This document shows positions 15,743 through 23,051 of a stretch of 64,000 nucleotides of DNA, piece by piece. Position 1 is the stretch's first letter. Each line of letters starts with the position of its first letter. The DNA comes from an uncultured Prochlorococcus sp. (GTDB taxonomy: Bacteria > Cyanobacteriota > Cyanobacteriia > PCC-6307 > Cyanobiaceae). The stretch spans positions 1 to 64,000 of the forward strand of contig CAJWWR010000002.1 in the NCBI GenBank assembly GCA_913048245.1, written 5' to 3'. Made by a program: the position numbers and the translations under genes. Under the pieces are notes generated by a model. It searched no databases and was not told where the DNA came from. It worked only from the letters and a program-made list of their open reading frames with translations.

Positions 15743-15998
15743 GTCTAATCCATTAATAAAGTCTGTAGATCATTTTGTTTTACTTGAACCAAATAGAAAA
15801 GAAAGGATAGTCTCAAGGCAGGAAGCTGTTGAGTGGCTTAAACACTGGATCTCCAAAACAGATACTTCCACAATATATCAAAATGATGTTTTTTCAGATG
15901 AGAAAAAAATTTCTAATTTCCTTGAAGACACATGTGAATTAGAAATAGAACCAGGATATAAAATTAAGTGGTTTGCAGTAAGAATAGACTCCAATTAA
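15741..15998 (+). CDS. CRR7-like protein (chlororespiratory reduction 7 family)
   Basis: An 85-residue soluble protein. The sequence HFVLLEPNRKERIVSRQEAVEWLKHWI followed by FLEDTCELEIEPGYKIKWFAVRI matches my recollection of the cyanobacterial/plant CRR7 family. In Arabidopsis, CRR7 is needed to accumulate the chloroplast NDH complex. Together with ndhO at 7.3 kb this would be a second NDH-1-related gene in the window. The ATG shares the palindrome CATG with the divergent exported-protein gene. The stop overlaps the convergent aroK stop by 4 bases. Family identification is by motif only. Confidence 0.6.
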   Translation: MSNPLIKSVDHFVLLEPNRKERIVSRQEAVEWLKHWISKTDTSTIYQNDVFSDEKKISNFLEDTCELEIEPGYKIKWFAVRIDSN

Positions 15999-16549
15999 TT
16001 TATTGTCTTATTTAATTGGAATAATATTTTATCCACTACTTGCTCCGTAGACTCTTCGTTAATAGAAACTTTAATATCTGCCTGAGCATACAAATATTTT
16101 CTATCATTCAAGATATCTAAATATACCTTCTTATAATCTTTTACATTTAGTAAAGGTCTTTTTTTTGTTTGATCTTTAATTCTCTTTAACGCAATTTCAG
16201 CTCTCAAGTCAATCCAAACAACTATACCTTGTCTAAAAACTCCCCAATTTTCTTTTCTTGTTATTACCCCACCTCCAGTTGATACGATCATTGATGGTAT
16301 CTGAATAATTTCTTTCAAACATTTTGTCTCTAATTCCCTAAAATAATTTTCGCCATCCTCATCAAAAATTTTATCAATTGATTTTTTCGTTATATTCTCT
16401 ATTAATGTATCAAGATCGACAAACTTATAATTTAATTGTTTTGCCAGTTCTGGTCCAGTTTTAGATTTCCCACTACCCATCATTCCAATTAAAAAAATAC
16501 TTCTTCCTTGAATAGTATTAATAATGGTTTTTATGAAATTTGGTTCCAT
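15995..16549 (-). CDS. aroK: Shikimate kinase
   Basis: A 184-residue P-loop kinase that phosphorylates shikimate at O-3 in the chorismate pathway. Walker A is GMMGSGKSKTG (about 22-32), the shikimate-binding acid is in FVDLDTLIE (about 43-51), the LID-proximal FRELE is near 68, STGGGV is near 90, and the lid KKRPLL is near 128. It is complete in length. The start ATG lies 50 bases from the opposing double-PTPS gene start, so the two genes are divergent with a short shared promoter. It is convergent and overlapping with the CRR7-like gene. Confidence 0.92.
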   Translation of the reverse strand: MEPNFIKTIINTIQGRSIFLIGMMGSGKSKTGPELAKQLNYKFVDLDTLIENITKKSIDKIFDEDGENYFRELETKCLKEIIQIPSMIVSTGGGVITRKENWGVFRQGIVVWIDLRAEIALKRIKDQTKKRPLLNVKDYKKVYLDILNDRKYLYAQADIKVSINEESTEQVVDKILFQLNKTIN

Positions 16550-16599: not shown

Positions 16600-17526
16600 A
16601 TGAATAACACATTTCCTAAAAGAATCCATGGCATGGGTCGCGAATGCGTTATCACTCGACGTGCCTGTTTTAGTTCTAGTCATAGATATTGGCTACCCGA
16701 AAAAAGCGATGAAGAAAATCTCTCCATTTTTGGAAAGTGTAGTATTGCTCCAGGTCATGGACATAACTATGAATTGATCGTTTCTATGGGAGGCAAACTT
16801 GATCAGGATGGCATGGTATTAAATCTTTCAAATGTTAAGCATGCCATAAAAGAAAAAGTTACAGGTCAACTAGATTTTCAATTCTTAAATAATACTTGGC
16901 CTGAATTTGACGTCACCAAACCCCAAGGAGTCTTACCAACAACCGAAGCTCTTATAAGAGTAATATGGGAACGTCTAAAAAGTGATTTACCTCTAATTGC
17001 GTTAAGATTGTACGAAAACCCTAATTTGTGGGTCGATTTTTATGGAAACAAAATGGAAGCTCTATTAACAGTTCAAACTCATTTTGCGGCTGCACATCGC
17101 TTAGCAAAAGAAGAAATTACTTTCAAAGAAAATACTGAAATATATGGCAAATGTGCCAGAGTAAATGGACACGGACACAACTACATACTTGATGTCACTG
17201 TAAGAGGTGAGATAGATCAAAGAACAGGCATGATATGTAACTTATCTGCTCTGAACAAAATTATTGAGGACCTTATCGTTGAAAAATTAGATCATACATT
17301 TCTAAATAAGGATATTGATTTCTTTAAAACTTGTGTTCCTACCGCTGAAAATATAGCTTTATATATTGCAGATATTTTACGTAACCCAATTAAGGATATC
17401 GGGGCCAATTTGCATAAAATAAAACTACAAGAAAGTCCAAATAATGCAGCGGAAATATATGCTGAACAAAGCATCTCAAATCTCTCTAATATTAAGAATG
17501 AAGAATCATTAGTAACACAAGCTTGA
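16600..17526 (+). CDS. Tandem two-domain 6-pyruvoyl-tetrahydropterin synthase/QueD-like protein
   Basis: A 308-residue protein with two PTPS-fold domains (about 10-160 and 165-290). Each has the catalytic/zinc signature: SSSHRYW and KCSIAPGHGHNYEL in domain 1, AAAHRLA and KCARVNGHGHNYIL in domain 2. The Cys-x4-GHGHNY pattern resembles PTPS/cyanobacterial 6-carboxytetrahydropterin synthases acting on dihydroneopterin triphosphate. The product could be a pterin or a queuosine precursor. I chose the ATG at 16600; an in-frame ATG at 16633, right before the first strand, is an equally plausible start. The next gene begins inside the stop codon. The two-domain fusion is unusual compared with single-domain bacterial QueD. 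Confidence 0.8.
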   Translation: MNNTFPKRIHGMGRECVITRRACFSSSHRYWLPEKSDEENLSIFGKCSIAPGHGHNYELIVSMGGKLDQDGMVLNLSNVKHAIKEKVTGQLDFQFLNNTWPEFDVTKPQGVLPTTEALIRVIWERLKSDLPLIALRLYENPNLWVDFYGNKMEALLTVQTHFAAAHRLAKEEITFKENTEIYGKCARVNGHGHNYILDVTVRGEIDQRTGMICNLSALNKIIEDLIVEKLDHTFLNKDIDFFKTCVPTAENIALYIADILRNPIKDIGANLHKIKLQESPNNAAEIYAEQSISNLSNIKNEESLVTQA

Positions 17527-18194
17527 TCAGACCGAGAATTATACTAGTTATAGCTTCAAGCATAGATGGAAGAATAGCTATTCCAAGTGGAGCCATATCG
17601 AATCTTGGAAGTCTGGAAGACAAGAAAATATTAAACGATTCACTATCCAAAGTAGATGCAACTATATTTGGTTCAGGAACCTTGAAAACGCATAAGAGTA
17701 ATTTCCTAGTTAAAAACTATACAAATACTAAAGATATAAGATTATCTAATAAACAACCAATTTCAATAGTAGCTGGTAATCCTAATTATTTTTCATATGA
17801 TTGGCAATTCTTTAAACAGCCAATAAGGAGATGGTTATTAAACTCTACAAAATATCCTTTAAAAGACAAAAGCAACTTTGAAAAAGAATTCTTTTTTAAA
17901 GAGGATATTTTTACTATCTTGAAATTACTTAAGAAAGAAGGAGTAAATTCTATTGCATTACTTGGAGGAGCAAAACTAATTTATTCTTTTGCTTTAGAAA
18001 ATCTTATTGATGAGATCAAAATAACAGTTGTTCCAAGAATTATAGGGGGAGAATACTCATGGATTCCTGCTGTGAAAAGCAATTGTATTTTTAAAACAAA
18101 TCAGGAATGGAAACTTGTTAGATCTGAAGAATTATCTTCTAATGAAATCTTTCTGCATTATTCCAAATTAAAAAGTCTAAATAATAATAAATGA
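17523..18194 (+). CDS. RibD C-terminal/dihydrofolate reductase-like reductase
   Basis: A 223-residue stand-alone reductase domain of the RibD_C family. The N-terminal PRIILVIASSIDGRIAIPSG has the typical S-x-DGR-I motif, and VNSIALLGGAKLIYSFALENLIDEI and VVPRIIGG form the NADPH-binding half. The family reduces the ribosyl-amino-pyrimidine riboflavin intermediate; homologues act on pterins or other substrates. There is no deaminase domain. The reading frame has no Met codon at all: initiation is probably the TTG overlapping the previous TGA (TTGA), indicating translational coupling to the PTPS-like gene. Its end overlaps the next gene by 4 bases (ATGA). Confidence 0.78.
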   Translation: MIRPRIILVIASSIDGRIAIPSGAISNLGSLEDKKILNDSLSKVDATIFGSGTLKTHKSNFLVKNYTNTKDIRLSNKQPISIVAGNPNYFSYDWQFFKQPIRRWLLNSTKYPLKDKSNFEKEFFFKEDIFTILKLLKKEGVNSIALLGGAKLIYSFALENLIDEIKITVVPRIIGGEYSWIPAVKSNCIFKTNQEWKLVRSEELSSNEIFLHYSKLKSLNNNK

Positions 18195-19348
18195 ATAAGC
18201 ATAACTATCAGATAAATATTTATTTTTCAATTAGGCAAATCAATCAAAAAGAATGGGAGAACTTATTAAGTGAAAATAACAACCCTTTTTATGACTGGGA
18301 ATGGTTAGTTAATCTTGAAACTTCGAAAAGTGTTTCAAGAGAAACTGGATGGCAACCACTTTATTTCTCTGTTAATCTTGAAAACAATATAATTGCTATA
18401 GCGCCTTTATTTTTAAAAAATCATAGTTATGGAGAGTTCATTTTTGATCAATCTTTCGCAAAACTTGCAGATGAATTAGATTTACAATATTACCCAAAAC
18501 TAATAGGCATGAGCCCATATAGCCCAGTAGAGGGATACAAGTTTTTATATAAGAATCAATCTAGTAAATCAGAAATAACAGAATTACTCTTAACTGCTAT
18601 TGAGGGGTTTGCAAGTAATAATAATATCCTAAGCTGTAACTTTCTGTATGTTGATATTGAATGGAGTAATTTATTACACAATCTTGGTTATCGCAAATGG
18701 ATCAATATTAGAAGTGAATGGCAATCTAAAGGAGAAAGATCATTTGATGAATTTTTAACGAGATTTAACTCTAATCAAAGAAAAAATATAAAAAAAGAGA
18801 GGAAATCAATTATTAATCAAAAAATCAATATTGAAATTATAAGAAACGACAAAGTCAACCTAGCAGTACTAAAAAAAATGCATAATTTTTATGCTCAGCA
18901 CTGCGCAAGGTGGGGGGTATGGGGTAGCAAATACCTGACTCCACAATTTTTTGATTCACTATTAAAACAAAAAGAAAAAGTTTTAATATTCGCGGCCCAT
19001 CAAAACAAGTCATCAGAGATTATTGCCATGTCAATGTGTATAAAAAACAAAGATTGCTTATGGGGAAGATATTGGGGGAGTAAAGAGGAATTCAAAAACT
19101 TACATTTTGAATTGTGTTACTACCAGCCTATCGAATGGGCAATATCCAACGGAATTCAATTCTTTGATCCAGGTGCTGGAGGTAAGCACAAAAGAAGAAG
19201 AGGATTTTTTGCCAGGGAAACAAATAGTTATCATAAGTGGTTTGACAATAACATGAGCAGAATTATTCACCAATGGCTAAACGATGTAAATAAGCAAACT
19301 TTATACGAAATAGATATCGAAAATCAATCAATACCCTTTATTAAATAA
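18191..19348 (+). CDS. FemAB-like/peptidogalycan biosynthesis GNAT protein (DUF482-type)
   Basis: A 385-residue protein of the GNAT/FemAB superfamily. Markers are the N-terminal NNNPFYDWEWLVNLE, GWQPLYFSV, the FLTRFNSNQRKNIKKERK motif near 200, and the C-terminal FDPGAGGKHKRRRGFFARETNSYHKW, a hallmark of the cyanobacterial/proteobacterial DUF482 family. Fem-type enzymes transfer amino acids from tRNA to peptidoglycan precursors, but the acceptor here is unknown. The start ATG overlaps the RibD-like stop (ATGA), so it is co-translated with the pterin-type enzymes, an unexpected pairing. No signal peptide or membrane segment is present. Confidence 0.8.
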   Translation: MNKHNYQINIYFSIRQINQKEWENLLSENNNPFYDWEWLVNLETSKSVSRETGWQPLYFSVNLENNIIAIAPLFLKNHSYGEFIFDQSFAKLADELDLQYYPKLIGMSPYSPVEGYKFLYKNQSSKSEITELLLTAIEGFASNNNILSCNFLYVDIEWSNLLHNLGYRKWINIRSEWQSKGERSFDEFLTRFNSNQRKNIKKERKSIINQKINIEIIRNDKVNLAVLKKMHNFYAQHCARWGVWGSKYLTPQFFDSLLKQKEKVLIFAAHQNKSSEIIAMSMCIKNKDCLWGRYWGSKEEFKNLHFELCYYQPIEWAISNGIQFFDPGAGGKHKRRRGFFARETNSYHKWFDNNMSRIIHQWLNDVNKQTLYEIDIENQSIPFIK

Positions 19349-19628: not shown

Positions 19629-20015
19629 ATGGAAGCAGAAAAAATCAAAACAAAAATAATAAAAAAAGATAAGTTATTATCTGATCGGTATATAAATTTA
19701 GATCCATCGGGATATTTTATTATCAAAGTAGACCATATAAAAAAAATAATTTTAGTAGAGCATTTTTTAAATAAAATTGATAATAAAGGATATGCAATAG
19801 ATCCCATAACTAATGAACCCATAGCATGTGATTCCATTATAAAAAGAAAGGAAAACGTTACATTCGAAGGTCATTCTGCAAAAGAATTGGGAATATTAAT
19901 TACAGAAAATAGAAATGACCTTATCTCTAAATTTGACCACGCTTTATATCTTGGAAGGGAATTGCAAAAAGCAGAACAATGTTTACTAGAAGAATCAATA
20001 TATATTCAAGATTAA
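19629..20015 (+). CDS. Conserved cyanobacterial protein, DUF4346-like
   Basis: A 128-residue soluble protein. The DPSGYFIIKVDHIKKIILVEHF motif, followed by GYAIDPITNEPIACDSI and GHSAKELGILITEN, resembles cyanobacterial DUF4346 proteins, which I recall also as a C-terminal extension of dihydropteroate synthase-like enzymes. Function unknown. There are no membrane segments; a lone cysteine lies in IACDS and another in AEQCLL. It is expressed from its own promoter region and followed by the petL-like microgene on the same strand. Confidence 0.65.
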   Translation: MEAEKIKTKIIKKDKLLSDRYINLDPSGYFIIKVDHIKKIILVEHFLNKIDNKGYAIDPITNEPIACDSIIKRKENVTFEGHSAKELGILITENRNDLISKFDHALYLGRELQKAEQCLLEESIYIQD

Positions 20016-21639: not shown

Positions 21640-22572
21640 ATGAGTTTGAATACTTTAAATAGAAGAAATATAAAAGAATTAAGACTACCAAAAGTCTTAA
21701 TATCTATATTAAGTACTATTGGAATTGTAGATACAGCAACAATAACATTAGATAAATTTGGATTATTTAATTCATCAAAATTTTGTTTAACAAGTAATGG
21801 TTGCGATATTGTTTTAAATAGCTCATGGGGGACCCTGCTATATCTTAACAAGACGGCTATTCCATTATCACTTGCAGGTTTAATAACATATTCATCATTA
21901 TTAATAATTTCTCTTTTATTAACGTTTAATTTCTTTTCAAAGAATAGTAAATTAAATAGATTTTTCTGGTGGCTAATTTTCCTAATATCTTGTGGTTCTT
22001 CTAGTTTTAGTTTAATTCTGGTATTTGACGTTATGATGTCTAAACTTAATACCTATTGCACTTTTTGTATAGTTTCTGCAATTATCTCTTTTTCAATTTT
22101 CATACTTTCTATTATTGGTGCAAAGTTCGAGAGCAGAGAAACAATCTTTTACAGAGGCTTTATAGTTTTTTTGACATTTCTTGTTGGAGGATTAATTTGG
22201 TCGAATAATTTAGACACTGCCAAAAAAGATTCTATCAATCAAGAATCTAATCTCGAAGTAATATCATCCGAAGCAAACGAAGCAAGAATAAATTTTGCTA
22301 AATTCCTAAGTAAAAATAATATAATTATGTATAGTTTATGGCATTGTGGTTGGTGTCAAAAACAAAAAGAATTTTTTGGTAAGGAAGCCTTAAAAGAACT
22401 AACTATTGTTGAGTGCGCAAAGCAAGATGAATATGGACTTAATGAATTTTGCTTAAGTAAAGGTATCACCTCAACTCCTACTTGGGAAATAGACGGCGAA
22501 CTCATTAGTGGTGCCATGTCTCTAAATGATTTAGCTAGGTTAACTGGCTATACTGGTAATACGAAGTTCTAA
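21640..22572 (+). CDS. VKOR-thioredoxin fusion, disulfide-forming membrane enzyme
   Basis: A 310-residue protein. Residues 15-190 are a VKOR domain with about five membrane helices: loop cysteines in KFCLTSNGCDIVL, the PLSLAGL motif, and the redox CTFC pair in helix 4. After a short linker, residues 220-310 are a periplasm/lumen-facing thioredoxin-like domain with active-site CGWC and a cis-proline segment STPTWEI. Such fusions oxidise exported cysteines and pass electrons to quinone; in cyanobacteria the homologue supports disulfide formation. It is divergent from rimO and 44 bases upstream of a free copy of its own thioredoxin domain. Confidence 0.9.
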   Translation: MSLNTLNRRNIKELRLPKVLISILSTIGIVDTATITLDKFGLFNSSKFCLTSNGCDIVLNSSWGTLLYLNKTAIPLSLAGLITYSSLLIISLLLTFNFFSKNSKLNRFFWWLIFLISCGSSSFSLILVFDVMMSKLNTYCTFCIVSAIISFSIFILSIIGAKFESRETIFYRGFIVFLTFLVGGLIWSNNLDTAKKDSINQESNLEVISSEANEARINFAKFLSKNNIIMYSLWHCGWCQKQKEFFGKEALKELTIVECAKQDEYGLNEFCLSKGITSTPTWEIDGELISGAMSLNDLARLTGYTGNTKF

Positions 22573-22616
22573 AAAACTTTCAGTTATTTTCTTATTGATT
22601 GGAGCAAGCTAAAAAA

Positions 22617-23051
22617 ATGTTTATCAGAATTTTTATCTTTATTTTTAGTATCCTATTAGCATGTTTTTTTGGCACTCATAATCTAAATACTGCAGAAGCA
22701 AATACTATCAGAGAAGGAACAACATCCAACAAAATAATATCTCCCAAAGAAAATCAGGCAAATGTAAATTTTGCAAAATTCTTAACTAACAATAATGTGG
22801 TTTTATACACTGCTTGGTACTGTTCGCACTGTCATAATCAAAAAGATTTATTTGGGAAAGAAGCACTAAAAGAACTAACTATTGTTGAGTGTGCAGAGCA
22901 AGATGAATATACTTTTAGTGAAGTCTGCAAAGCGAAAGATATAACAGGTACACCTTCTTGGGAAATAGATAATCATATTTTTTCTGGAACAAGAAGTCTG
23001 GCAGAATTAGCAGAATTAACTAATTATCCAGGAAGCTTTAAGTTTGAATAA
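22617..23051 (+). CDS. Exported thioredoxin-like protein, paralogue of the upstream VKOR Trx domain
   Basis: A 144-residue protein. Residues 1-29 are a signal peptide or membrane anchor (lysine-free MFIRIFIFIFSILLACFFG core). Residues 50-144 are a thioredoxin-like domain with CSHC in the active site and GTPSWEI as the cis-proline loop. It closely matches the C-terminal domain of the preceding gene, sharing GKEALKELTIVECA and QDEY, with a 25-base identical DNA block. LLAC could serve as a lipobox. The ATG at 22617 is preferred over a TTG at 22599. A disulfide isomerase or client-specific partner of VKOR is inferred. It overlaps the convergent nadB stop by 14 bases. Confidence 0.82.
   Translation: MFIRIFIFIFSILLACFFGTHNLNTAEANTIREGTTSNKIISPKENQANVNFAKFLTNNNVVLYTAWYCSHCHNQKDLFGKEALKELTIVECAEQDEYTFSEVCKAKDITGTPSWEIDNHIFSGTRSLAELAELTNYPGSFKFE

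Follow-up and report, generated by a model that had tools for sequence, protein, structure and literature searches.

The window analysed here, a stretch of 64,000 nucleotides from an uncultured Prochlorococcus sp. (contig CAJWWR010000002.1, positions 1 to 64,000), carries three consecutive plus-strand genes: a tandem 6-pyruvoyl-tetrahydropterin synthase (PTPS) of the bPTPS-II type (16600..17526), assigned by Pfam, PDB matches and catalytic residues; a stand-alone reductase with the RibD_C domain and the dihydrofolate reductase (DHFR) fold (17523..18194), which we call RibDL, assigned by Pfam, tree and model; and a FemAB-like tandem-GNAT protein (18191..19348), assigned by Pfam and predicted fold. 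We propose, with a probability of roughly 0.6, that RibDL is the missing cyanobacterial dihydrofolate/dihydropterin reductase, acting in place of FolA. The earlier note on this DNA had described the genes as overlapping at their stops, which the open reading frame coordinates bear out: the PTPS stop TGA (17524-17526) overlaps the RibDL start TTG at 17523 (TTGA), and the RibDL stop (18192-18194) overlaps the FemAB-like start ATG at 18191 (ATGA). Pfam detects two PTPS domains in the first protein (PF01242, E 8e-62; one stretch at residues 156-287), RibD_C in the second (PF01872, E 7.5e-25, 88.3 bits against a gathering score of 24.1) and FemAB_like in the third (PF04339, E 4e-127).

The conserved order of the trio is neither chance nor an accident of one strain. 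Genomes at least 90% complete and at most 5% contaminated were counted as of good quality, which holds for 75 of the 121 genomes of the picocyanobacterial family; all 75 encode the tandem PTPS and RibDL, and 74 encode FemAB. In each of the 56 picocyanobacterial genomes with compiled coordinates, the three genes lie on the same strand in the order PTPS-RibDL-FemAB; PTPS and RibDL are separated by 11-110 nt and, in 54 of these genomes, RibDL and FemAB by no more than 640 nt. Hence, the gene order seen in the earlier note is not unique to one strain, and the linkage of the third gene stands for nearly all of these genomes; it breaks down in genus g9, whose four genomes carry FemAB on a different contig from PTPS and RibDL. 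The 4-nt overlaps are a trait of the window's genus, and short spacers take their place in other genera. Judged by position, the pterin-type enzyme and the RibD_C reductase appear to be co-transcribed, and the whole trio may be co-translated, as the note had concluded from the overlaps. The gap that separates RibDL from FemAB in Synechococcus-like genomes was considered as the site of a hidden gene, an idea dropped since no convincing candidate was found at the three such loci read closely.

The three encoded proteins

We take the tandem PTPS to be bPTPS-II, the bimodular cyanobacterial 6-pyruvoyl-tetrahydropterin synthase of Kong et al. 2006 (cited in PMC3546692). That work is said to describe the cyanobacterial enzyme and the making of tetrahydrobiopterin (BH4) glycosides through it; 6-pyruvoyl-tetrahydropterin in vitro and BH4 in vivo are reportedly documented for the cyanobacterial bPTPS-II orthologue only. 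The likeness lies in a length of ~300 aa, two PTPS domains per chain (also in the relatives), a single copy, near-universal occurrence (187 of 192 good cyanobacterial genomes) and animal-type PTPS as the nearest PDB structures (3i2b, 1b66). With residue roles taken from rat PTPS, the C-terminal domain has the complete set of Cys, Asp-His pair, Zn-binding His and Glu in 24 of 24 relatives. The N-terminal domain retains Cys, Zn-binding His and Glu, but the catalytic His of its Asp-His pair is replaced, by Phe in the window protein and, among the 24 relatives, by Phe in 23 and Tyr in one; by these residues, it is partly disabled. What sets the window gene apart from bPTPS-II as described is that it heads a picocyanobacterial operon and that the loss of the N-terminal catalytic His was noted in this analysis. 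The tandem PTPS as the organism's QueD was rejected: the scanned picocyanobacteria have QueC together with separate single-domain QueD-like PTPS proteins (~157-180 aa each), so the tandem enzyme is dispensable for queuosine.

RibDL is a stand-alone RibD_C protein of ~223 aa, and both its Pfam score and its DHFR-like fold place it in the RibD_C superfamily. This membership, together with archaeal Rib7 and RibD as best fold matches, would be expected of an ordinary riboflavin-pathway reductase, either a RibD C-terminal domain or an archaeal ArfC/Rib7-type enzyme. However, a separate bifunctional RibD is encoded in all 50 genomes scanned, which renders RibDL dispensable for riboflavin; in the tree, RibD forms its own clade (support 100/100) apart from the RibDL groups, in line with the note's expectation that the reductase would not group with riboflavin enzymes; and RibDL scores far under the NCBIfam cut-offs. 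Moreover, the Lys of xLKxAM in the first strand, the DNPxLT loop and the Glu before the GG motif, present in six of six cyanobacterial RibD proteins, are replaced in every RibDL compared, and the replacement of these substrate-binding signatures argues that the RibDL substrate differs. RibDL shares Pfam family and fold with the RibD/RibG C-terminal domain and with Rib7/ArfC, but it has no deaminase domain. We therefore rejected RibDL as an ordinary RibD and regard a riboflavin role as highly improbable; tree and signatures set this ancient cyanobacterial protein apart from riboflavin RibD.

A fold search with the AlphaFold model of RibDL (mean pLDDT 74.5) returned archaeal Rib7 (E 6e-14) and RibD first, followed by Rv2671 and Thermotoga DHFR. 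Rv2671 of M. tuberculosis is a weak alternative DHFR that replaces DfrA when overexpressed (PMC10812664). Like RibDL, it is a stand-alone RibD_C/DHFR-fold protein, and the model matches its structures 4xt4 and 4xt6, which contain dihydro- and tetrahydropteridine rings, at a TM score of ~0.70 and ~16% identity. Unlike RibDL, which is near-universal and occurs where FolA is absent, Rv2671 is found beside a true DHFR, and its activity is low. With FolA (DHFR_1, PF00186), RibDL shares the overall fold class and the proposed reaction, and the distributions of the two largely exclude each other; RibDL differs in being longer and in having no PF00186 match.

The FemAB-like protein is encoded in 194 of 195 genomes. 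It is modelled as a FemX-type tandem GNAT fold, with FemX, one of the FemABX aminoacyl-tRNA-dependent transferases, as the best match (E 1e-12) at modest TM scores of 0.5-0.6 and 11-12% identity. It belongs to a separate Pfam family from FemABX (PF04339), and we consider it a predicted FemX-like transferase.

Distribution of RibDL and FolA

Dihydrofolate reduction is the final step of folate synthesis, and every cyanobacterium needs tetrahydrofolate. Lists from 2003-2007 onwards give the gene for this step as missing, and the matter was still unclear in 2026 (PMC1971073, PMC12903740): Prochlorococcus was described as being without any recognisable DHFR (PMC1971073), and a 2026 genome paper reports FolA-like proteins in only 15% of cyanobacteria, with the route of the others unclear (PMC12903740). 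In our survey, the RibDL profile matched in 176 of 192 good genomes of the class; of 100 matches fetched, 96 were true RibDL and the other four were of a different type from one family. Strong FolA matches (PF00186) occurred in 22 of 195 genomes, and no genome of the picocyanobacterial family had any PF00186 match. A PF01872 scan of four picocyanobacteria returned RibD and RibDL as their sole RibD_C proteins.

The RibDL orthologue is missing from 19 of the 22 FolA genomes and from 23 of the 173 others (Fisher p 4e-12, a value that, like those below, treats genomes as independent, phylogeny not being removed). With families f22 and f13 set aside, it is missing from 14/17 FolA genomes and 3/153 others (p 4e-15), and with looser RibD_C relatives counted as present, from 14/22 and 4/173 (p 1e-12). 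To accept every RibD_C protein 210-300 aa long as RibDL proved too generous, as the tree and group profiles showed another type in f22 and a divergent paralogue in f13; the exclusion held after the table was redone with orthologues only. Family f15 splits cleanly: RibDL is absent from its five FolA genomes and from no others. Thus, RibDL presence is complementary to FolA across genomes, with exceptions weighed below (f22, G122, G124, G143, G205 and the three genomes that carry both genes). The FolA genomes were also considered as ThyA users, and this was rejected: PF00303 is matched in 22 genomes, mostly partially and by ~500-aa proteins, with little FolA overlap, so that there is no simple tie between FolA and ThyA. 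As a separate observation, ~20 cyanobacteria have a protein of ~500 aa with only a partial thymidylate-synthase match (PF00303 positions ~88-226), e.g., G236:C99:37024-37434.

Outside the picocyanobacteria, 73 named loci have enough sequence to judge what follows RibDL, and in 59 of them FemAB is the very next gene; a PTPS gene lies inside the fetched locus in one of 80. In one genome of another family (G148), PTPS, RibDL, FemAB and a gene for a DUF4346 protein follow one another on one strand. As RibDL-FemAB is common and PTPS rare in these neighbourhoods, the RibDL-FemAB pair is old, and PTPS was added to it in picocyanobacteria and also in G148. In 68 of the 80 named loci from filamentous cyanobacteria (L051-L110), a divergent histidine kinase gene lies upstream of RibDL.

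Sequence comparisons indicate that RibDL was lost several times. On a FemAB tree of 48 genomes, chosen by FolA state and with the tree standing in for the species tree, the state of FolA without RibDL requires eight changes, at least five of them forced by well-supported branches. Phylogenetically independent pairs gave no case of RibDL and FolA varying in the same direction, three to five in opposite directions and one to three ties, numbers too small to give a sign test any chance of reaching 0.05. In none of the 22 FolA genomes is the tandem PTPS or FemAB missing; hence, the loss is specific to RibDL. Several FolA genomes keep the neighbours in order (kinase gene, FemAB and often DUF4346) with RibDL missing from among them. 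In G204, which has FolA, the first half of RibDL persists immediately before FemAB (L071 3265-3624), frameshifted and truncated to a relic, and the sister lineages keep RibDL, some alongside FolA. No relic above noise was found in the other FolA genomes.

RibDL as a candidate dihydrofolate reductase

The fold family of RibDL, its distinctness from RibD, its distribution, the exclusion with FolA, the loss in place and the gene order can all be read from the sequences, and from the exclusion, the in-place loss and elimination we infer a DHFR function. FolA is the best predictor of RibDL absence, which argues for a role as folate/dihydropterin reductase: if both proteins do the same job, as we propose, RibDL can be lost once FolA has been acquired. 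RibDL, an RibD_C/DHFR-fold enzyme, would use NAD(P)H to reduce 7,8-dihydrofolate to the tetrahydro form, and might also reduce other 7,8-dihydropterins. The tandem PTPS would supply 6-pyruvoyl-tetrahydropterin to the tetrahydrobiopterin/pterin-glycoside branch, so that in picocyanobacteria one message may express two makers of tetrahydropterins together. The FemAB-like protein, a putative FemX-like transferase, would be the older neighbour of RibDL, to which it may be linked in function. The broader claim, that RibDL is the general cyanobacterial DHFR, repeatedly displaced by non-orthologous FolA, and that related RibD_C proteins serve f22, we hold at somewhat better than even odds.

The main rival, close to the idea of the earlier note, holds that RibDL is dedicated to the tetrahydrobiopterin branch, where it would act after the tandem PTPS, either standing in for sepiapterin reductase by reducing 6-pyruvoyl-tetrahydropterin or recycling dihydrobiopterin. 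The close linkage of PTPS and RibDL in each of the 56 compiled picocyanobacterial genomes and the one-strand array of G148 would fit this, as would the BH4 glycosides that cyanobacteria reportedly make through bPTPS-II; FolA could, moreover, take over dihydropterin reduction, which would also yield the exclusion. However, RibDL is kept without the tandem PTPS in G212 and G216, and in G262 with a weak PTPS match only; the tandem PTPS is kept in 14 of 14 FolA genomes without any RibDL-like protein; PTPS is nearly absent from the named loci outside picocyanobacteria; and the picocyanobacterial DHFR would be left without a DHFR-fold candidate. Hence, we consider a dedicated biopterin role rather unlikely. 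The same persistence of each gene without the other leaves the note's single pathway to an acylated tetrahydropterin unsupported, and no evidence was found for pterin acylation by the third enzyme, with its FemX-like predicted fold, so that the note's interpretation is partly supported overall.

Adjacency to FemAB could instead mean that RibDL serves a FemAB-tied reaction (e.g., one that modifies a cell-wall or lipid molecule with an amino acid) and that the FolA exclusion is indirect. The old RibDL-FemAB pairing and the near-universal, FemX-resembling partner speak for this, but FemAB stays intact where RibDL is lost, and the losses coincide with FolA, a specific dihydrofolate reductase; we judge it improbable, less so than the riboflavin role dismissed above, and favour RibDL as a DHFR.

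Several observations weigh against RibDL as the cyanobacterial DHFR. The structures that score best with its model are riboflavin reductases, the model is of moderate confidence, with residues 13-27 of the active-site loop poorly modelled, and no folate gene adjoins RibDL. The Synechocystis-like family f22 (~20 genomes, of which seven were checked by sequence and the remainder inferred from congeners) has neither FolA nor a RibDL orthologue and carries another stand-alone RibD_C protein, type II (L085, L086, L069, L279-L289 group), which is sister to RibD in the tree and, in f22, adjoins no folate gene. G124 (f5, L084; a single contig, 99% complete) is without FolA, RibDL or any other stand-alone RibD_C protein, and it likewise has no tandem PTPS and no strong match to QueC. 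Short DHFR-like proteins are all that G143 and G205 have, RibDL and FolA coexist in three genomes, and family f13 has FolA alongside a divergent RibDL paralogue; G122, a further exception to the complementarity, is a very fragmented assembly. Such cases either need other reductases or weaken the claim.

That a RibD_C protein can serve as an alternative DHFR is already known. Our literature search found no RibD-type DHFR described in cyanobacteria and no phylum-wide one that would fill the cyanobacterial gap, most subscription journals lying outside the search. If RibDL is indeed this enzyme, the "life without FolA" gap would be closed for the phylum, a core step of one-carbon metabolism would be assigned in the most abundant phototrophs, and the repeated losses would provide a clean case of enzyme displacement with a visible relic. 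Cyanobacteria are reported to be insensitive to trimethoprim (PMC4531292), and RibDL would then be a specific candidate for the cause. Through RibDL, a question about 20 years old becomes directly testable.

Neighbouring genes

Downstream of the trio, without overlapping it, lies a plus-strand gene for a DUF4346 protein (19629..20015; Pfam name PterinBD-DUF4346), assigned by Pfam and conserved position. It follows FemAB in 30 of the 58 named loci with room for it and probably belongs to the same neighbourhood as the trio. Archaeal dihydropteroate-synthase-like proteins end in a part to which the DUF4346 protein is related. Upstream, the minus-strand gene for shikimate kinase (aroK, 15995..16549; Pfam, conserved position) diverges from the operon; it is conserved there in picocyanobacteria and is not thought to take part in the operon's function. 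Further along the plus strand of the window, 21640-22572 encodes a VKOR-domain protein whose C-terminal part is thioredoxin-like; a shorter protein encoded just after it (22599-23051) resembles this part, in an apparent tandem partial duplication.
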